This document shows, one piece after another, positions 2,808-16,414 of a DNA stretch of 20,531 bases. The position numbers were made by a program, and so were the translations under genes. Every line of letters begins with the position of its first letter. The first letter of the stretch is position 1. The stretch lies in IMG/VR virus record IMGVR_UViG_3300009104_000148, positions 1 to 20,531 of that record. One strand, given 5' to 3'. Below the pieces are notes generated by a model, which saw nothing but the letters and a program-made list of their open reading frames with translations, had not been told where the DNA came from and did not search any database. This DNA is from a virus.

Positions 2808-4345
2808 GCAGCCATTTCAGCTTGAGCGGCCTGTGCCTGGGCTTGTGCCGCCTGCTCTGCCAGTTCCTCCCTTTCTGCTTCGGTCCTCAACAGGTCCGAC
2901 TCTATGCCGAGCTTCTTACCCAACCATTGCGGCAAGTTCTCGAGCTTTGTTCCCAACCCCAATATTTCGGGACCGAGCTGACCGACTGTCGCCAGGTACT
3001 GATTCATTGCCACCAGCTCGTCCTGGTCCTGTGCGCGGGCCAATGGGCTGGTGTGCTTGATTGTGACCTCACGCCCGTCAACCGTAATCGGCGGAATCTT
3101 GCCGGCCTGCTTTAATACCGAGACTGTCCGCTTGATGACCTTCTCTACGAATTCACTCTGCAGCCGACCGAACGCACTACCGGAATCCTGTACGAGCTCC
3201 TGATTGCGTAACGCCATCTCGGTCGCAGACTTCACCGGTTGGTCGAGCTCACCAAAAGGCTCGGCATAAAGAGCTTTATTAATACGTGTTCGCAAGTCAT
3301 CCAGTATCAACGCCGAGAATTGGATATCACCCGAACGATCCAGCGGCCTTAATGTGGGGTTGCGGGTGTCGTTGCTGCCGACCGGAATAATGGCGCCTGG
3401 CGTCAGCCGCACATTGTATGGGTTAATCACACCGTCATCCGCTGCGGTGTAAACGCCGGCAATTGACAGGGCTGCGTTCTTTAACGTGTACTCGACGACC
3501 TTGTTTGCCGTCTTTACGTCGGGGAGCACTTGCATTACCCGACCGCGGCCCAGGGTTTCACCAGGCACAACGTATTCTCTGAACACAATCCAGGGTGATA
3601 CGTCATATTCCTGGGTGAAGATAACGTGCTTTTCGTTTCGCTCGAGGACGCACTGATACCAAGTCATCGTTTTCGGGTTGTAAACCGTGCCCTCGATCAG
3701 TGGTATTTTGTCCTCGGGCTTATCGTTGGCTCGTTTCTTGAGCTTTTCTGATAGTTCCGCACCAATCCATAAGCGGTCTATATGCCTGGCTGGCACTTTG
3801 TGCTCACGCCATACCGTTTCGATAGTGCCCCAGGGGCCGGCCTCGGGATAAATCTCGGCCAGTGGTGCGGCATGGAACTCGAGCAGGGATTGCGGGCCCT
3901 CGCTCATTTCACAGGACAGCACACCGGTGGAGACTGACAGGTCGAGAAACGCCTCATGTGCCTGGGTCGAGAAATTGCTGTGGTTGATGTGGTCAAAAAT
4001 GATCCTGGTCACATCATCGAGAATCGGCTGGACTTTTTCGTGCTCCGCCTCGGGGATATCCGAGCCCGGCACCAGGATGGACCAGTGCCGCCAGGGCGGT
4101 GTCAATGTTGCCTGCAAACGGCTGGCGAACTTCTGCACACCGACCACAGCAGTCGCGTCGTAAATATCCGTATTTTTCTTCTGCCCTTGTGAGTGGGCTG
4201 TCAGTGTTTCACGTTGCGGGAGTGCGTACTGATAACACTCTCGCAGATGGGTATACCAGTTGGTTCGAGCCTTCTTTGCTGAATCGAACCGTTTGATTAA
4301 ATCCTCGGGAGAACCCAACTCCTTCGGGATTGAATATTTCGCCAT
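2804..4345 (-). CDS. Head-to-tail connector (portal) protein, T7-type
   Basis: A 513-aa protein of the T7 gp8-type connector family. It has YTHLRECYQYALPQRE near the N-terminus, TLTPPWRHW about 90 residues in, and a C-terminal helical region leading to an Ala/Gln-rich tail. This length is normal for the family. It forms the dodecameric ring at the packaging vertex through which the terminase pumps DNA. It sits three bases after the stop of the 212-aa gene and overlaps the Bbp19-like gene. Confidence 0.9.
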   Translation of the reverse strand: MAKYSIPKELGSPEDLIKRFDSAKKARTNWYTHLRECYQYALPQRETLTAHSQGQKKNTDIYDATAVVGVQKFASRLQATLTPPWRHWSILVPGSDIPEAEHEKVQPILDDVTRIIFDHINHSNFSTQAHEAFLDLSVSTGVLSCEMSEGPQSLLEFHAAPLAEIYPEAGPWGTIETVWREHKVPARHIDRLWIGAELSEKLKKRANDKPEDKIPLIEGTVYNPKTMTWYQCVLERNEKHVIFTQEYDVSPWIVFREYVVPGETLGRGRVMQVLPDVKTANKVVEYTLKNAALSIAGVYTAADDGVINPYNVRLTPGAIIPVGSNDTRNPTLRPLDRSGDIQFSALILDDLRTRINKALYAEPFGELDQPVKSATEMALRNQELVQDSGSAFGRLQSEFVEKVIKRTVSVLKQAGKIPPITVDGREVTIKHTSPLARAQDQDELVAMNQYLATVGQLGPEILGLGTKLENLPQWLGKKLGIESDLLRTEAEREELAEQAAQAQAQAAQAEMAA

Positions 4346-5366: not shown

Positions 5367-6770
5367 TCACGCGAACACCGACCAGCCCTGGTCCGATTGA
5401 ATGGTTTTTTGTGGGCCTGGTGCGTGATGTCGAACGATAGCCCTGCCCTCGCCCGCGCCGAGCATCAGATATTGAGCAGCCTCTGCAACGTGTGAGTATT
5501 GGTTCTTGTCCGGTTTGTCGTGAAACCGCTCATCGCCGGAAACCTGGACCCGCTTGTAAGCATAGCCGCCACCCATCGCCTTGCGTAATGTCTGACACTT
5601 CGGAGAGATCGAGAGCCCAGGCTCGCCGTCCACCAGGCGGGACAGCGGCACAGCCACAGCCTCACGCCGTAACGTGAAATCATTAGTCGGTGCTGGCCTG
5701 GCGCGGATGCCCCTGGCACGAAGAATCTGGAACGGTGTTGTCTCGTCGGTCTGACTGCGCTGCTCACCCGCCGGATCACCCCACACCTGGAACTCGAACC
5801 CTGGAAACTTCTGCTGCATCTCAGCCGCCAGGAGCTCACCAAATCGGACCGCACCCATATCCTCAGTAACGAGCTCATGCAGCCATCGCCAGCGGCCTCG
5901 AACGTCACGCTGCCCAAACACCGCTGCTGGCGTCAACCCGAAGTCGATACCCACATAAACCGGCTCGCCGTTAATGGTTTCGATGGGCTGCTGCGCGATG
6001 TGCAGATGATCGCGGAACTCGGGATAGACCGGTCGGCCCTCGCTGATAAATCCGTACTCACCATCGACATAGACCCGAATCCACTCCTGGTCCTTACCAG
6101 CCTCGAGGCGTTCGTAATAACCAGCCGGCAGATTCTCGATATTCTCAGCACCCTCCCGCCGTCCACTCGGCTGCTTAAACAGCATCCAGCCCTTGGGTGA
6201 TGTTTCCTCGAACAGGCGATACCACCAGTGATCGTTGTCTGGTGGGTTGGTATCCATGATGACGCCGAACCAAGTGGGCCCGCCTTCCCGCTTGGATGGG
6301 TAGCGACCGACACGACCTTGTAGCATATCAATGACAGCTCGAGGGACCTCCCTGGCCTCATTCACCCAGGCGCCGGTTAGCTCGAGCGATAGGAGCTTTT
6401 TAACATCCTGGGGCCGGTCGAGAGCTCGAAACATAATCTCAGCCTCGACATCTGCGAACTTGATGCGATGCGTCATATCCTGGTTATTCCAATGACCAAC
6501 CGCCTCGAACCAATCCCGCCAGGTGTTGAGTGTGGTGTCCGTCAGCTCGCGGTAGGTGTTACGGACTACCGCCCATCGAGAACGCCGAATGCCATCAGCG
6601 CCAGGCGCTTGTTCCTGTAACCGTCTGAACATTTCCCAACAGCAGGCCGTCGACTTGCCGGAACCTACCGGACCCATCACACCCCGAACGAAAGCACCGC
6701 ACTGGTGGAATCTCCACAGTGTCGGGCTCGCATGGTAATCAATCTGTTGAGTCGGCTGGCTTGTCTGCAT
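5367..6770 (-). CDS. Terminase large subunit
   Basis: A 467-aa packaging motor. The N-terminal ATPase has Walker A GPVGSGKST (residues 33-41) and downstream LSLELTGAWVNEARE as a candidate Walker B/catalytic Glu region. The C-terminal RNase H-like nuclease has VYVGIDFG, WGDPAGEQRSQTDE and HVAEAAQY, carrying the expected acidic residues. It cuts and pumps phage DNA through the portal. The ATG at 6770 is chosen because the domain begins shortly after it; upstream codons in this frame only shadow TerS. It overlaps the TerS gene by 32 bases, which suggests translational coupling. Confidence 0.92.
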   Translation of the reverse strand: MQTSQPTQQIDYHASPTLWRFHQCGAFVRGVMGPVGSGKSTACCWEMFRRLQEQAPGADGIRRSRWAVVRNTYRELTDTTLNTWRDWFEAVGHWNNQDMTHRIKFADVEAEIMFRALDRPQDVKKLLSLELTGAWVNEAREVPRAVIDMLQGRVGRYPSKREGGPTWFGVIMDTNPPDNDHWWYRLFEETSPKGWMLFKQPSGRREGAENIENLPAGYYERLEAGKDQEWIRVYVDGEYGFISEGRPVYPEFRDHLHIAQQPIETINGEPVYVGIDFGLTPAAVFGQRDVRGRWRWLHELVTEDMGAVRFGELLAAEMQQKFPGFEFQVWGDPAGEQRSQTDETTPFQILRARGIRARPAPTNDFTLRREAVAVPLSRLVDGEPGLSISPKCQTLRKAMGGGYAYKRVQVSGDERFHDKPDKNQYSHVAEAAQYLMLGAGEGRAIVRHHAPGPQKTIQSDQGWSVFA

Positions 6771-7158
6771 TCGGTGCGAGCATATTGAAGCTAATGCCCT
6801 GTGGTGTGGTGAGCTCCTTTTTGTCAACCAGGAGGCCGTGTAGCTTGGCCTTGCCCATCGTTGCCTGCACAGCAGCAGCCGGCGCACGCTCCTCGAGGGC
6901 GACCTGTCGGTTTTCGTCGAGCTCGGTTGTGATGGTGTCGACTGTGATGTTGTGCCGTTCGAGTGCCTGTGCCTGCAGCTCTCCGATCCTTACCTCGACC
7001 CCGCTGTGCAGATGGGCGAGTTTCCACGCCTCGGACTTCACAGCCTCATCACTCATTCCATCGGCGTCGTAGGCGTCGCGGTATGCTTTCGACAACGCAC
7101 CCGACATTTCGACTACCGCCTGGGCGAACCTTTCCTGTTTCAGTGTGAGATTACTCAT
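6739..7158 (-). CDS. Terminase small subunit
   Basis: A 139-aa protein of the common small-terminase family (Terminase_2 type). It has an N-terminal HTH region (LTLKQERFAQAVVE, SKAYRDAYDADGMSDEAV), a coiled-coil section (RIGELQAQALERHNITVDTI) and a C-terminal AAVQATMGKAKLHGLL motif. It recognises phage DNA and hands it to TerL. No clear Shine-Dalgarno precedes the ATG; instead palindrome copy 3 ends two bases upstream. Its start overlaps the end of the RusA gene, so it may be translated by coupling. Confidence 0.88.
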   Translation of the reverse strand: MSNLTLKQERFAQAVVEMSGALSKAYRDAYDADGMSDEAVKSEAWKLAHLHSGVEVRIGELQAQALERHNITVDTITTELDENRQVALEERAPAAAVQATMGKAKLHGLLVDKKELTTPQGISFNMLAPNADKPADSTD

Positions 7159-7513
7159 AGGATACGGATTGTATCTCTACCTCGAGCTGGCCGCCTGGTG
7201 TGACCTCGCCGCGTTCGATGTATAACCTGTCCACCTGGTTATCGTCCTTGAACACTTTGGCGTGCTCGAGTGAGTCGAGGGTGCATTTCAGTAGGTTGTC
7301 GATGTCTCGACGGCGCCGATCCGGCGGGAACGCTGTGATAGCCACCTGTAGCCTGGTATCAGCTCCGAACCGGCCCAGGTTGGCGACCTCCTCGATCACC
7401 CTCTCTCGATAGGCTCGCCCTTTGGCGCTGATGTAAACGTGTGTCTTGGTCTTTAGCCAGTAGTTATTGACAGATGGCGGCCAGGGCAATGTCAGCAGCA
7501 CACTATTTGTCAT
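7151..7513 (-). CDS. rusA: RusA-type Holliday junction resolvase
   Basis: A 120-aa protein starting MTNSVLLTLPWPPSVNNYW, the typical RusA opening, with FPPDRRRRDIDNLLKCTLDSL and VFKDDNQVDRLYIERGEV containing the acidic metal-binding residues. Length equals that of E. coli RusA. It cleaves four-way junctions during phage replication and recombination and can resolve branched DNA before packaging, fitting its position right before TerS. The start at 7513 is chosen from the conserved N-terminus. It overlaps the end of the preceding small gene. Confidence 0.9.
   Translation of the reverse strand: MTNSVLLTLPWPPSVNNYWLKTKTHVYISAKGRAYRERVIEEVANLGRFGADTRLQVAITAFPPDRRRRDIDNLLKCTLDSLEHAKVFKDDNQVDRLYIERGEVTPGGQLEVEIQSVSYE
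7161..7175 (-). promoter_or_regulatory. Palindrome GATAC-N5-GTATC, copy 3 (just before TerS)
   Basis: Perfect arms; minus-strand sequence AGATACAATCCGTATCCTAT differs from copy 1 by a single base over 20. It occupies positions -3 to -17 relative to the TerS start, where a ribosome site would be, and lies in the last codons of RusA. A protein bound here would act on transcription entering the packaging genes. Confidence 0.6.
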
Positions 7514-7745
7514 CGTTTCTTGGTCGACCGATTCGGAACTCCCGAAAGATGCGCTCATAACGAGCTCTGGTTGGGACCGTCTTAGGTGGGTCACGCTGTA
7601 CGCCGTACAGGACGAACTGCTCGAACTCTTTGCAGGCCAGCTTTTCTTTCTTGCATTTGTAGGCGAACCAGCAATCCTTATCACACGGTGCTATCGCCTC
7701 GACGATGTATGTCTTTATGGGCTGCGATGTCTTTACGAAGCTCAT
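7503..7745 (-). CDS. Small cysteine-containing phage protein
   Basis: An 80-aa protein, MSFVKTSQPIKTYIVEAIAP followed by CDKDCWFAYKCKKEKLACKEF, with four Cys (CxxxC, then two more) in a basic stretch that could bind a metal. It ends in an Arg-rich tail (RIFREFRIGRPRNDDK). It lies in the replication operon between the P-like gene and rusA and overlaps both neighbours. I do not recognise the family. The start is uncertain: ATG 7745 overlaps the previous gene by 65 bases and lacks a good ribosome site. Confidence 0.55.
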   Translation of the reverse strand: MSFVKTSQPIKTYIVEAIAPCDKDCWFAYKCKKEKLACKEFEQFVLYGVQRDPPKTVPTRARYERIFREFRIGRPRNDDK

Positions 7746-7887
7746 CGAGGGTGAGCCCGAACGTTCTGCGGAACCATTCTCCCCAAGTGAATTTTCCTGA
7801 TGGCGTGAGCTGGTGTCGTCGGGGCCAGACGCTCCTGGCGGCACAAAGACGCATAAACGCCAGGTCGTCATCGCTAGGACCGGCCAA
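7681..7887 (-). CDS. Small hypothetical protein of the replication operon
   Basis: A 68-aa protein with a TTG start at 7887 (GGGGAG upstream); an in-frame ATG exists 11 codons later. Visible pieces are LCAARSVWPRRHQLTP and WGEWFRRTFGLTLDELRKDI, a predicted helical and basic-aromatic protein. It overlaps the end of the P-like gene by 14 bases. The family is not recognised. Its place suggests a replication accessory role, with no direct evidence. Confidence 0.5.
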   Translation of the reverse strand: MAGPSDDDLAFMRLCAARSVWPRRHQLTPSGKFTWGEWFRRTFGLTLDELRKDIAAHKDIHRRGDSTV

Positions 7888-8314
7888 GCACTCCCCGCAT
7901 TTTCTTCAACTGCTCACGGATAAAGACCGGATCGACCTCGGGCGGTGGCAATGCAGGCCCAAACATCCGATGATATGGCGCTGCCCTTTTCTCTCGACAC
8001 AATCCCATAAATGCGGGTAATGTCGGCGGCCATTCATCGCCTCGTTCTATGAGCTTTTCGAACGCCTGGCGTATCTCATTGAGGGAATATCGACCCAATC
8101 CCTGGGCCCAAGTCTGTGCCGCACTTGTAAGTGTGCCGTCAGGGTTTGACACTTCCCCCCAGGCGCTTATCCACCGGTGTCCGTACAGTTCCGTCATCCG
8201 TTGCCAGATGCGGGCCATTACTCGCTCGTTTGTCGACGCGACCCGTTGCGAGCTCTGCCCGTTCGGTTGCTGAGAGCTTTCTCGGGTGATAATTTCGTCT
8301 TGTTTGTATTGCAT
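7874..8314 (-). CDS. Replication protein P-like (helicase loader-type)
   Basis: A 146-aa protein. The core MARIWQRMTELYGHRWISAWG, then WAQGLGRYSLNEIRQAFEKL and WPPTLPAFMGLC, matches phage replication P-type proteins, which in lambda load the host DnaB helicase at the origin. It is shorter than lambda P. The start at 8314 is favoured by a strong Shine-Dalgarno (GAGGTGAG, about 6 bases upstream), which gives a 176-base out-of-frame overlap with the HTH protein gene. A start at 8218 (MARIWQ) would remove most of the overlap but lacks a good ribosome site. Confidence 0.65.
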   Translation of the reverse strand: MQYKQDEIITRESSQQPNGQSSQRVASTNERVMARIWQRMTELYGHRWISAWGEVSNPDGTLTSAAQTWAQGLGRYSLNEIRQAFEKLIERGDEWPPTLPAFMGLCREKRAAPYHRMFGPALPPPEVDPVFIREQLKKMRGVLGRS

Positions 8315-8996: not shown

Positions 8997-9139
8997 CTTC
9001 GAACAAAGCAATCTATGAGGCTATAGGGGGGTATTCCAAAATGATATGCACCAATGTATTCCGCCAAACGAATCGGGGAATTCTTAGACACCGCGATAGC
9101 AAACCGCTATTAAAACTATACAGGTTTGACAAAATCTCA

Positions 9140-9523
9140 ATGCCAGAAAATCTTTGGAACGATAGAATGAGGAAAGCGAGGGAATCCCTCGACCTCAAGC
9201 GCAATGAGTTCGCTAGACGAGTCGGCGTTTCAGCAGCAACCGTATCAGATTGGGAGAGTGGCAAGATTAAACACCTGTCCTCTGAAAATCTCACCAAAGT
9301 CTCACAGGTGCTCGGGATAAGCCCCGAGTACATCCTATCGGGACGCACCGCTGCAGAATCCAAACCCAACACCAAGGGTCGTTGGATTGACGGATTCGAC
9401 CTCACTGATGACCAGAAAGATTCGGTCCTCAAGATGGTCGACGACTTCGAGATAGAGAACGAACGCGCTCGGGACATCGTTAGACAGTTGGATGCCTCGA
9501 AAGCCAAGCGCAAGAAAGCCTGA
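9140..9523 (+). CDS. Lysogeny repressor-like HTH (XRE) protein, no peptidase domain
   Basis: A 127-aa protein. The XRE-type HTH spans about residues 8-60 (MRKARESLDLKRNEFARRVG, SAATVSDWESGKI, LTKVSQVLGISPEYIL). A short C-terminal helix-rich part ending in KAKRKKA follows. There is no S24/LexA-like peptidase, so RecA-driven self-cleavage is not expected. Divergent from the YdaS/Cro-like gene, it is the natural owner of the TAGG-N4-CCTTA operators. ATG 9140 fits the domain; an upstream in-frame ATG at 9041 has a G-rich ribosome site and would add 33 residues of no recognised character. Confidence 0.75.
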   Translation: MPENLWNDRMRKARESLDLKRNEFARRVGVSAATVSDWESGKIKHLSSENLTKVSQVLGISPEYILSGRTAAESKPNTKGRWIDGFDLTDDQKDSVLKMVDDFEIENERARDIVRQLDASKAKRKKA

Positions 9524-10894: not shown

Positions 10895-11052
10895 TGAAAG
10901 CGGCCCCGCTCCTTAATTTAACCGGTAGGTTTGAACGAACACTGTATGTTGTGGCGACATTAGTGAACGGTGGAGCGGGGTCGTTTGGTGCTGTGACCTG
11001 GCGAACAACGGACGAGGCTGTGGCGCGAAAGCGGTGGGTGGCGAGCGGTTGA
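10894..11052 (+). CDS. Early operon gene 5 (52 aa)
   Basis: A small open frame, ATG overlapping the previous stop (TAATG), reading MKAAPLLNLTGRFERTLYVV and ending ARKRWVASG. It fills the otherwise empty stretch between genes 4 and 6 and has no ribosome site of its own, so it would be coupled to gene 4. A match such as TWRTTDEAVARKRW looks like real protein, but nothing is recognised. Confidence 0.4.
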   Translation: MKAAPLLNLTGRFERTLYVVATLVNGGAGSFGAVTWRTTDEAVARKRWVASG

Positions 11053-13783: not shown

Positions 13784-13998
13784 GAAGGACCCACACCCTG
13801 AGAGCTGCAAACGGAACCTACACCAACAAGGAAGGTGAGGAGAAAACGAGCTGGATAACCGTCGGCGCCCTGATGGATAAGGATGGCAAACCAGTTATCA
13901 AATTCGACTCAATACCTGTCGGCAATACCTGGGATGGTTGGATACAGGCTTTTCCTGTGGATGAAGATTCAAACTTTGACGACAAAATACCATTTTGA
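13780..13998 (+). CDS. SSB-like protein with acidic DDKIPF tip
   Basis: A 72-aa protein whose C-terminus, NFDDKIPF, matches the acidic tip by which bacterial SSB binds partner enzymes. The rest (KTSWITVGALMDKDGKPVIK, then WDGWIQAFPV) could be a minimal OB-type fold but is much shorter than SSB (about 170 aa). With Sak4 and the exonuclease directly upstream it likely coats single strands or recruits host repair proteins. Start overlaps the nuclease stop (ATGA). Confidence 0.6.
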   Translation: MRRTHTLRAANGTYTNKEGEEKTSWITVGALMDKDGKPVIKFDSIPVGNTWDGWIQAFPVDEDSNFDDKIPF

Positions 13999-14036
13999 CA
14001 GATGAAACAATCAAAGAAAAAGCCCACAAAGGAACG

Positions 14037-14849
14037 ATGCGATACTCCCGATCTATCTTAAACGTCCTATCTCTAGGTGCTGGAGTGCAGTCATCCGCGA
14101 TGGCACTCATGGCAGCACACGGTGAGATCGAGCCAATGCCTGACTGTGCCATCTTTGCGGATACCGGCGCAGAACCACAGCACGTTTATGACCAGTTGGA
14201 CCTGGTTGAGGCGAATGTACCGTTTCCGGTGTATCGGGTGATGGAAGGGGATGGCCTGGAAAAAGCGGTCATCCGTTCAATCGAAGGCGCACGATACGCT
14301 GGTCCTCCCTTTTTTACTGAATCCGCGCATGGGGGGGGGATGTTACGTCGGCAATGCACCCGCGAATACAAAATTATGCCGATTGAACGCAAGGTGCGGG
14401 AATTAGTCGGACTCAAAAAGGGACAACGTGGTCCGAAAGAAGTAGCGGTAAGTCAGTGGATTGGTATCTCGATGGACGAGATTGTTCGGATGAAACCCAA
14501 TCCAACCAAGTGGATTCTGAATCGCTGGCCTTTGGTTGAGATGCAGATGTATCGGTATGACTGTCTACGCTGGATGGATGAACACAGGTTTGAGGAACCT
14601 AAGAAATCAGCGTGTTATTTCTGCCCGTATCATGACAACTCGACGTGGCAGAACATGATGGATCACGACCCCGAATCGTTTGCAAAAGCGGTCAAAATGG
14701 ATGAGTTGATTCGAGATGGTGTGCGTGGAACAAAGGAAAAGCTCTACCTGCATCGATCTATGGAGCCTCTAAAGGACTGTGACTTCGACCCTGACCGTGA
14801 CCAGTTCGATATGTTTGATAATGAATGTGAGGGGATGTGTGGGGTATGA
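14037..14849 (+). CDS. PAPS reductase-like PP-loop protein
   Basis: A 270-aa protein of the adenine nucleotide alpha-hydrolase (PP-loop) superfamily. It has the modified loop LSLGAGVQSSAMALMA, then FADTGAEP, RRQCTREYK, and a CYFCPYHDNSTW cluster with CLRWMDEH upstream. Many phages carry it, annotated as PAPS reductase; its true job (sulfur or nucleotide chemistry, perhaps modification) is not settled. ATG 14037 is preferred over TTG 13995 because AAAGGA lies upstream and the domain starts soon after. The region seems AT-richer than its neighbours and has a G8 run (14331-14338). Confidence 0.75.
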   Translation: MRYSRSILNVLSLGAGVQSSAMALMAAHGEIEPMPDCAIFADTGAEPQHVYDQLDLVEANVPFPVYRVMEGDGLEKAVIRSIEGARYAGPPFFTESAHGGGMLRRQCTREYKIMPIERKVRELVGLKKGQRGPKEVAVSQWIGISMDEIVRMKPNPTKWILNRWPLVEMQMYRYDCLRWMDEHRFEEPKKSACYFCPYHDNSTWQNMMDHDPESFAKAVKMDELIRDGVRGTKEKLYLHRSMEPLKDCDFDPDRDQFDMFDNECEGMCGV

Positions 14850-15127
14850 ATAATCGATCTTTCGTGACGAAGCATCCTTTGTCTTACGATGACCTTTACG
14901 AGCGGATTTCTCGATTAGAGCGGAGTAACCGAGCCCTAAGGGCGCATCTTAAGACTACAAAAGCAGTGATGAAAACGCGAGAAGAAGAAATTACCCAGCA
15001 GCGCCAACAGATAGACCATTTATGTGCTGCAGAAATAAGCAAAAAGGAAATGCACAAAATCATCTGTGACCAGGCACAACTCATCACCGAGTTATTACGG
15101 GAAGGAAAAGAAATTACAGGTGATTAG
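14846..15127 (+). CDS. Coiled-coil protein (93 aa)
   Basis: ATG overlaps the PAPS-reductase-like stop (ATGA). After a polar start, LYERISRLERSNRALRAHLK and a following charged helix (REEEITQQRQQI) form a coiled coil. A second region (KIICDQAQLITELLREGKEI) is also helical. The family is not recognised. Tight coupling suggests it belongs with the PP-loop gene or is a small DNA-associated protein of the integration module. Confidence 0.6.
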   Translation: MNNRSFVTKHPLSYDDLYERISRLERSNRALRAHLKTTKAVMKTREEEITQQRQQIDHLCAAEISKKEMHKIICDQAQLITELLREGKEITGD

Positions 15128-15129
15128 CA

Positions 15130-15411
15130 ATTAAAACTTATCTCAAACTAGATGAGGCAGCCGCATATTGCGGGACGACGCCCGAATTATTCGAGCGTCG
15201 AGCCCCTAGTTTGGGCATACACCCATTCCCTTTTTTGGGCGAACTGATGTATCGTTGTGCTGATATTGAGGCAGCACTGAACCGAGCATGGCGCGACTCT
15301 ATCAACGAAACCGATCCTGGTATCTCGACTACCACAAAGAAGGCTCACGACACCGTGAGTCACTTGGTCCAATTTCCAAAGCCGAAGCCGAGGCCCACAA
15401 GAAGGCACTAG
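15130..15411 (+). CDS. Excisionase-like HTH protein, apparent ATT start
   Basis: The frame reads KTYLKLDEAAAYCGTTPELF, then GIHPFPFLGELMYRCADIEA, the MerR/excisionase-type winged HTH used by phage Xis proteins. No ATG, GTG or TTG precedes the domain; an in-frame stop lies at 15121-15123. The only plausible initiator is ATT at 15130, seven bases after AGGTGA (15117-15122), a near-perfect ribosome site. The 93-aa product overlaps the integrase start by 124 bases. It would direct excision by bending att DNA. Alternatives are a sequencing error or a TTG start at 15211 that would lose half the domain. Confidence 0.65.
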   Translation: MKTYLKLDEAAAYCGTTPELFERRAPSLGIHPFPFLGELMYRCADIEAALNRAWRDSINETDPGISTTTKKAHDTVSHLVQFPKPKPRPTRRH

Positions 15412-16247
15412 AGCGCCGGCTCGATAACGTCCTACCCGCCGCCGGCCCCGAATTTATCACCTGGGCCAACGAATACACCGCCTGGCATTGTTCCGAATAT
15501 CCCGATTCGTACTACAGAGTCGAGCAGATAATTCGCACCCACCTAGTTCCGGCCTTTGCCGGCCTAGCTATCGGCATGATAAGCCCTCGAGAGGTTGAGG
15601 CATTCAAGCACGCCAGGCTCGAATCGGCTGCACCAGCAACCGTTTCCAAGGAATTACGAACCCTCCAGGCGATGATAAATCTTGCGGTCCTGTGGGATGT
15701 CATACCCAGGAACCCAATCAAACGAGTGAAAGCGCCCCGCAACGTCGTCAGTAAGCCGCCCAGGTGGTACACAAAAGAGGAGCTTTCGGACCTTTACAAG
15801 CAGAACAGCTATCCCCACATCTGGCGGCTGCTGGCCTGCACCGGCATCCGTCGAGGCGAGCTGTTCAATCTAACAAGGCGTGACATCGGTAAAAATGAAA
15901 TGCGAATCGTCAGCCTGGCAGGCGCTCGAACCAAGTCAGCGAAGTGGCGGACCGTTCCCCTGTCAGACAGCGCACAAGACGCTCTAATGGCGCTGAAGGA
16001 TACAAACCGTATCGCCCCTGACGTTACCCCTTACTCGCTCTCGAGGGCGTTCAGCCGCGATCTGAGGCGCCTGGAGCTCGGCGGGACCCTGCACTGTCTA
16101 CGTCACACCTATTGCAGCCATTTAGTGATGCAAGGTGAGCACCTGGCGGTGGTTAAAGAGCTCGCCGGACACAGCACAATCAAGGTCACAGAGCAGTACG
16201 CACACCTGGCGCCGGACTTTCTCAAGGGTGCGGTGGTGAACCTTTAG
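15288..16247 (+). CDS. int: Tyrosine integrase
   Basis: A 319-aa site-specific recombinase. The N-terminal arm-binding part (MARLYQRNRSWYLDYHKEGS) and core-binding SAM-like domain precede the catalytic domain with Arg in TGIRRGEL, HxxR in LHCLRHTY, His in AGHST and the nucleophile Tyr in VTEQYAHL. It integrates phage DNA at the tRNA-Glu site beginning 62 bases after its stop. The start overlaps the Xis-like frame, as xis/int overlap in lambda. Palindrome copy 4 lies inside its 3' part. Confidence 0.93.
   Translation: MARLYQRNRSWYLDYHKEGSRHRESLGPISKAEAEAHKKALERRLDNVLPAAGPEFITWANEYTAWHCSEYPDSYYRVEQIIRTHLVPAFAGLAIGMISPREVEAFKHARLESAAPATVSKELRTLQAMINLAVLWDVIPRNPIKRVKAPRNVVSKPPRWYTKEELSDLYKQNSYPHIWRLLACTGIRRGELFNLTRRDIGKNEMRIVSLAGARTKSAKWRTVPLSDSAQDALMALKDTNRIAPDVTPYSLSRAFSRDLRRLELGGTLHCLRHTYCSHLVMQGEHLAVVKELAGHSTIKVTEQYAHLAPDFLKGAVVNL
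15999..16013 (+). promoter_or_regulatory. Palindrome GATAC-N5-GTATC, copy 4 (in integrase)
   Basis: GGATAC-AAACC-GTATCG, within codons near the integrase's 3' third. In the plus direction, the direction of this gene, it matches the shared consensus GATACANNYCGTATC; in copies 1-3 that orientation is minus, also along transcription. Confidence 0.5.
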
Positions 16248-16252
16248 GCCAG

Positions 16253-16269
16253 TGGCACAACCTGGCACA
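16253..16269. repeat. attP arm-type sites, P arm (TGGCACA x2)
   Basis: Two direct TGGCACA copies 10 bp apart (16253-16259, 16263-16269) between the integrase stop and the tRNA-like core. The same heptamer recurs twice on the other side of the core. Repeats on both sides of an att core are the expected arm-binding sites of an integrase N-terminal domain. Confidence 0.6.
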
Positions 16270-16308
16270 ATCAGTAAATGCTAATAAACTCCTAACTCAT
16301 TGATTTTA

Positions 16309-16356
16309 TGGCGTCCCCAAGGGGATTCGAACCCCTGTTGCCGCCGTGAAAGGGCG
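16309..16356 (-). other. attP core: 3' half of tRNA-Glu(TTC)
   Basis: On the minus strand it reads CGCC, the anticodon loop CTTTCAC, GGCGG, then the T arm (GGGTTCGAATCCC region), acceptor strand and CCA, the last 48 bases of a tRNA-Glu. The sequence 5' of it shows no D arm or acceptor partner, so it is not a whole tRNA. Phage integrases commonly use such 3' ends so that the host tRNA is restored on insertion. The match to the gammaproteobacterial tRNA-Glu points to the host group. Confidence 0.9.
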
Positions 16357-16392
16357 CATTGACTCGCTTATTATCAATCACTTATATGTTGC

Positions 16393-16414
16393 CTGTGCCA
16401 CTATACTGGCACAG
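16393..16414. repeat. attP arm-type sites, P' arm / hairpin
   Basis: CTGTGCCA-CTATAC-TGGCACAG, an 8-bp inverted repeat containing two more TGGCACA heptamers in opposite orientation. It is probably an arm-type integrase or Xis site. On RNA it could also act as a weak stop for the minus-strand operon, whose last gene ends here. Confidence 0.6.

Follow-up and report, generated by a model that had tools for sequence, protein, structure and literature searches.

Forty-eight base pairs at positions 16309-16356 (minus strand) of the window, as we call the 20,531-base IMG/VR virus contig that was analysed whole and that makes up its entire record, are an exact match to the 3′ half of tRNA-Glu(TTC), and they almost certainly constitute the core of the attP of a temperate phage, lambda-like in layout and used in the way set out below. 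The attachment site is an ordinary attP, of the textbook anticodon-centred kind in which the host tRNA is restored. A sequence-only reading of this DNA had proposed an attP with 48 bp of tRNA-Glu(TTC), this tRNA as the integration target, a molecule not captured as a prophage, and a host readable as gammaproteobacterial; the first three parts of this interpretation stand, whereas the last is not supported.

The identification of the site itself is confirmed: the match is the exact 3′ half of the tRNA, running from a point within the 5′ strand of the anticodon stem to the encoded CCA. The 48-mer occurs once in the window and in 0 of 100 shuffles, and differs from E. coli gltT at two of its 48 positions. 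In all 16 host loci that were fetched (L039-L048, from 17 matching genomes, and L063-L068, from 12), the identical 48 bases belong to a complete tRNA-Glu(TTC) gene, as its 3′ part; beyond them the window reads cattgac, whereas the host loci read gtgtcc or atgtcc. A complete tRNA, which the sequence-only reading had named as evidence against itself, was sought with ARAGORN and none was found in the window, nor were there Rfam matches in the window at E values up to 1. The integrase ORF ends 61 bp from the 48-mer, and the CCA end is directed towards int; this orientation, which would let integration rebuild the tRNA, is shared by all 14 related contigs that carry such a half (half-type contigs, the window included), irrespective of the direction of int. 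The exact half and the adjoining integrase together support tRNA-Glu(TTC) as the predicted integration site. By position, the 7-bp overlap would correspond to the anticodon loop, CTTTCAC (16346-16352, minus strand), with the flanking arms of the anticodon stem as the putative core-type sites; crossovers centred on the anticodon are a named class in the Islander work (PMC4383910).

The 48-bp extent first assigned to the site was too narrow, as putative arm-type and IHF-like sequences stretch it to about 16253-16413 (~160 bp). Four copies of the repeat TGGCACA surround the core, three on the plus strand (16253-16259, 16263-16269 and 16407-16413) and one inverted (16394-16400, minus strand), a number equalled by 0 of 500 shuffles, and only two copies occur elsewhere in the window's other 20 kb. 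Perfect matches to the IHF consensus, which for scoring we took to be WATCAANNNNTTR, lie at 16293-16305 (AATCAATGAGTTA, minus strand) and 16372-16384 (TATCAATCACTTA, plus strand). Eight of the 14 half-type loci carry such a match no more than 120 bp from the core; the background, taken from the remaining sequence of 13 loci, is 0.014 per 240 bp. On one side of the core the matches fall at -16 (window, L005 and L011), -15 (L084) and -28 (L012), and on the other side at +13 to +16 (window, L009, L012, L013 and L015), L013 and L015 being relatives that share the same 13 bases at this position; none was found within 120 bp of the core in L006, L007, L008, L010, L014 and L085, the first three of which have one-mismatch matches at +15. 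Regarding the arm repeats, L011 carries six copies of GGTGCAA, reached by 0 of 500 shuffles, those of L006, L007, L008 and L012 were reached by 17-29 of 500, and those of L005, L009, L010, L013, L014 and L015 were no better than shuffles, so that a clear excess is seen only in the window and L011 among the loci L005-L015 and the window. Arm-type and IHF-like sites thus flank the core in the window, and in its relatives only in part.

The neighbouring gene (15288-16247, plus strand) encodes a tyrosine integrase of 319 aa (PF00589, 2.8e-15; phrog_1, 7.6e-57), in which R188, K216, H269, R272, H295 and Y304, presumably the catalytic residues, are invariant in a 12-row alignment. Its best matches among named phages are 25-35% identical (best 20 of 797 records), and a scan of viral contigs with this single sequence gave no match. 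The start of int is overlapped by about 120 bp, in another frame, by a small Xis/AlpA-like HTH ORF (15124-15411, plus strand), which has a weak match to the phrog_66 excisionase (E 0.014) and no Pfam match. This ORF has no ATG, GTG or TTG before 15211, and an ATT at 15130 is aligned with the ATG of L080; the missing usual start may be due to initiation at a rare codon or to a fault in the assembly. A similar ORF is found at the same place in the loci of 11 relatives (L005-L011, L017, L080, L081 and L084) and is absent upstream of int in L012, L013 and L015. Among the seven Xis-like ORFs scanned, six matched the phrog_66 excisionase weakly (E 0.0018 to 0.32) and four matched PF12728 below the cut-off (E 0.0035 to 0.12).

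The association with tRNA-Glu(TTC) extends to the whole integrase family, defined as contigs with an integrase at least 40% identical to the query used, across 250 or more of its residues (18 including the window) and assembled by integrase-alignment searches, whose short peptide patterns may miss relatives, together with a 20-mer scan. A tRNA-Glu(TTC) sequence lies at int in 18 of the 18 contigs, as a half in 14 and as a whole gene in four, with neither in none, a count that includes close copies such as L081 and L082, which agree at 11,007 of 11,011 positions. The exact 48-mer is present in three other viral contigs, each with a homologous integrase (65, 49 and 46% identity). Across the 12 half-type loci compared, the tRNA sequence stops within about five bases of one point and the flanks beyond it differ. 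In L012, L013 and L015, int is inverted relative to attP, which is upstream of int, with the CCA end still towards int. In the closest relatives of the clade with whole tRNA genes, L009 and L010, the half is separated from int by 2 kb (6017-8018) and 0.7 kb (3133-3861), respectively.

Beyond the family count, two distant viral matches, L016 (32%) and L086 (35%), showed no tRNA-Glu half in the DNA examined. Only L017 is close among the 20 loci of the genome scan; the other 19, left out of the count of 18, are 23-44% identical, those at 41-44% (L025, L028, L034 and L036) over 40-67 residues only. No tRNA-Glu anticodon arm was found near the integrase in these 19 loci, and L032 has one four-mismatch match to it, 7 kb from the integrase. 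In L077 the half tRNA is present with no A2-type integrase within the 7.3 kb examined, and in L078 genes for tRNA-Asn, tRNA-Glu and tRNA-Asp stand side by side, with no A2-type integrase in the DNA examined. ARAGORN calls a 71-nt tRNA-Glu over the half of L015 (3512-3582; same contig as L002), which is probably a false call on the attP half because its 5′ part is unlike that of the host; tRNA miscalls of this sort on attP halves have been described (PMC9897764).

In the mechanism that we propose, the integrase would bind the TGGCACA arm sites and the core, with host IHF probably bending the DNA at the two flanking sites, and the strands would be exchanged within the 7 bp that encode the anticodon loop in the host's tRNA-Glu(TTC) gene. 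Integration would join the host 5′ half to the phage 3′ half at the int end, restoring a complete tRNA, and the displaced host 3′ half would then mark the far end of the prophage, while the overlapping Xis-like ORF probably directs excision. It could be argued that the half, besides serving as attP, also acts as an RNA, either as a terminator for int or as a decoy for tRNA processing or for defences that cut tRNAs, for in the window it is convergent to the 3′ end of int and has retained both T-arm and 3′ acceptor strand. We consider this improbable, as the half lies upstream of int in L012, L013 and L015 and its conservation is explained by the restoring of the host tRNA alone.

That the 48-mer is instead an attR, or the decayed remnant of an integrated prophage, seems very improbable. 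Half tRNA genes are known to mark island ends, as the Islander report describes (PMC4383910), but an attR would adjoin host DNA on its CCA side, where the window has int, and an attL would hold a complete tRNA, of which the 5′ half is absent here. On the side opposite to int, phage genes follow, including one for an exonuclease-like protein (phrog_704, 3.9e-114), and both neighbours of the half, int and the exonuclease-like gene, are retained in L003; the nearly constant end point of the tRNA sequence in the 12 half-type loci, with differing sequence beyond, also speaks against this reading. The geometry is accordingly that of attP, in agreement with the earlier claim that the molecule was not captured as a prophage, although the same geometry could in principle come from a tandem prophage junction. 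That the fragment is a decayed phage tRNA gene retained for translation is hardly credible: some phages carry tRNA genes and the sister clade has a complete tRNA-Glu, but the break falls at nearly one place within differing flanks, by the integrase in 14 of 14 half-type contigs, and the window has arm-type and IHF-consensus sites.

Returning to the lambda-like attP, the surrounding genes are those of a phage, as the sequence-only reading had described the flanks, with integrase, Sak4-like, portal, capsid and terminase families represented. A candidate CI-type HTH repressor (9041-9523, plus strand; HTH_3, 1.6e-14; phrog_8, 3.5e-16) is consistent with a temperate life style. A PAPS-reductase-family protein is encoded just upstream of the integration module (13995-14849; phrog_424, 4.6e-45). 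The nearest portals among the matches listed are 36-38% identical and belong to Pelagibacter phage EXVC031P, a faecal record and Methylophilales phage MEP301; the marine phages in this list of best portal matches, two in number, measure 34-35 kb, so that the record, at 20.5 kb, is probably a fragment. The terminase (5367-6887) has a 44% match to 'Dunaliella viridis virus SI2', a record listed with an algal host that may itself be a phage. No match was obtained by megablast of the window against phages.

The host could not be read as gammaproteobacterial from the half tRNA. In the class to which a MAG titled Gammaproteobacteria belongs (the class of G001, which includes the genome of L017), 12 of the 369 genomes sampled have the exact 48-mer; in another class of the same phylum, 17 of 78 have it. 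These 17 were the only matches among 398 genomes of a phylum-wide sample around the Gammaproteobacteria MAG holding L017, and all of them fall in a single order of 78 genomes, which is the whole of that class and has no member in the class sample of the L017 genome. A pattern one base shorter was found in 29 of the 78 genomes and in 0 of 99 genomes in the phylum of a Planctomycetota MAG. Since the exact 48-mer occurs in two classes of one phylum, the half is not diagnostic of Gammaproteobacteria; going by these matches, it may indicate the phylum. Judged by its size (78 species in one order, with genomes of 1.2-3.1 Mb), the second class may be the Zetaproteobacteria. A 16S was recovered from 3 of 22 genomes; that of G040 is 85.3% identical to that of E. 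coli, 85.7% to that of G666 and 85.0% to that of G030, values that point to no particular class. An exact tRNA half therefore does not identify the host class, and an earlier warning that the tRNA-half method alone gives a broad host assignment only is found in the work on pelagiphages (PMC3861242).

A check proposed together with the earlier claim, a search for prophages at tRNA-Glu accompanied by the window's integrase, returned no integrated copy in the genomes searched. There was none in the 78 genomes of the order of G107 and none in the 369 genomes of the class of G001, where only the contig of L017 and one relative matched; the integrase of the latter (G626) is 26-36% identical to 12 family members, and no tRNA-Glu was present in the 7.1 kb read. 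The 17 genomes of the second class with the exact 48-mer hold no close copy of the integrase, the best match being in G107 (1.9e-42), on another contig.

Four members of the family (L017, L080, L081 and L082) carry a complete tRNA-Glu. L017 has a complete tRNA-Glu(TTC) at 2848-2923 and a separate 20-bp core at 3012-3031, 88 bp past the 5′ end of the tRNA; this core has exactly the sequence of the anticodon arm in the MAG's native tRNA-Glu (L037). A scan with the 20-mer core yielded five viral contigs; in L075/L081, L076/L082 and L079/L080 the integrase is 91% identical to that of L017 and tRNA-Glu lies 72-74 bp from the core. The complete tRNA-Glu(TTC) is at 6029-6105 in L080, L081 and L082, oriented like the half in the window, and these three contigs were recovered again by integrase search alone. 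A short core with a complete cognate tRNA is accordingly found in four of the four contigs. The L017 site is an attP; its interpretation as the attL of a prophage was rejected because the host keeps its own tRNA-Glu (L037) and the separate 20-bp core has non-tRNA flanks on both sides. As only 20 bp are common, integration would not rebuild the T-arm and acceptor of the host gene, and the carried gene would therefore have to replace the host tRNA. Around the short core of L017, 7-mer repeats were reached by 15 of 500 shuffles, which is suggestive, and no repeats beyond those of shuffles were seen in L080 and L081; no IHF consensus was found near the short core in L017, L080 and L081.

The carried tRNA-Glu genes score 53-57 bits against RF00005 (three scanned), compared with 55 and 61 for two host tRNA-Glu genes. 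Their anticodon stems, read by eye, are unlike that of the core but still paired, one pair being G-U: they read CTGGC/GCCGG, CTGGC/GCCAG and CCAGC/GCTGG, the corresponding stems being CCGCC/GGCGG (E. coli) and CCGCC/GGCGA (the MAG's native gene), and pair 30-40 is flipped in all of them. It is our conjecture that the altered stem shields the carried gene from the phage integrase. An additional base in the T-loop of L080 and L081 argues to some degree against full tRNA function. In the integrase tree, which took in three of the four whole-tRNA contigs and whose long outgroup rows leave the root unsure, these group together (100/100), beside L009 and L010 (100/97), within the half-type family, and with such nesting one switch suffices. 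As a tentative reading, which we hold possible without favouring it, this one lineage (L017, L080-L082) would have exchanged the 3′ half of tRNA-Glu for the complete gene next to a 20-bp core, giving a tRNA-dependent lysogeny in phages of Pseudomonadota, in which the anticodon stem is rewritten without loss of pairing, so that the carried gene escapes recognition by the phage's own integrase, and this gene, after integration, is transcribed from the split host gene's promoter, which lies immediately upstream. The window itself, with its 48-bp core and no tRNA gene in the fragment available, is of the other kind.

Among known systems, phage lambda has the order xis-int-attP, with arm sites and IHF sites flanking the core. 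The window resembles it in this order and in its flanking arm-type and IHF-consensus sites, and differs in that its core is half of a tRNA gene, its arm sequence is TGGCACA and its xis-like ORF overlaps int. The site is a sign of a temperate phage whose attachment site is lambda-like and whose predicted host target is tRNA-Glu(TTC). The 'A' site class of Islander (PMC4383910), as presented there, likewise has a tRNA 3′ fragment in attP, an adjoining integrase and a tRNA restored on integration, and 2083 islands with an anticodon-centred site are listed; against this class, the window is set apart by its target, tRNA-Glu(TTC), and by an integrase at most 35% identical to those of named phages (best 20 of 797 records). 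Among marine phages, an HTVC019P-like pelagiphage is described with an integrase and 46 bp of tRNA-Leu as attP (PMC3861242), an exact tRNA fragment that was used there for host prediction; the window shares this arrangement, and its portal family has a Pelagibacter phage as the best named match among those listed, but the tRNA is different and the nearest portals listed are those at 36-38% identity. Similar tRNA replacements are reported in Sinorhizobium (PMC11476347), and another group of Sinorhizobium prophages is described without such replacement (PMC12429752). The tRNA-dependent lysogeny reported for actinobacteriophages in 2024, where cores measure 8-17 bp (PMC10865867), differs from the window, which would restore the host tRNA; outside actinobacteriophages that paper names one Lactobacillus prophage, and under that phrase no such lysogeny of Gammaproteobacteria with tRNA-Glu was found among the literature titles and abstract beginnings listed. 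The sister clade of L017, L080, L081 and L082, known from sequence alone, resembles the phages of that paper in its short core, in a complete cognate tRNA near int and in half-type relatives with related integrases, and differs in a core of 20 bp instead of 8-17 and in a tRNA that is Glu. Half-type and whole-tRNA-type attachment sites here stand under one integrase tree, which makes two questions raised there (PMC10865867) testable, namely whether the short core or the carried tRNA came first, and whether such lysogeny is common outside actinobacteriophages.
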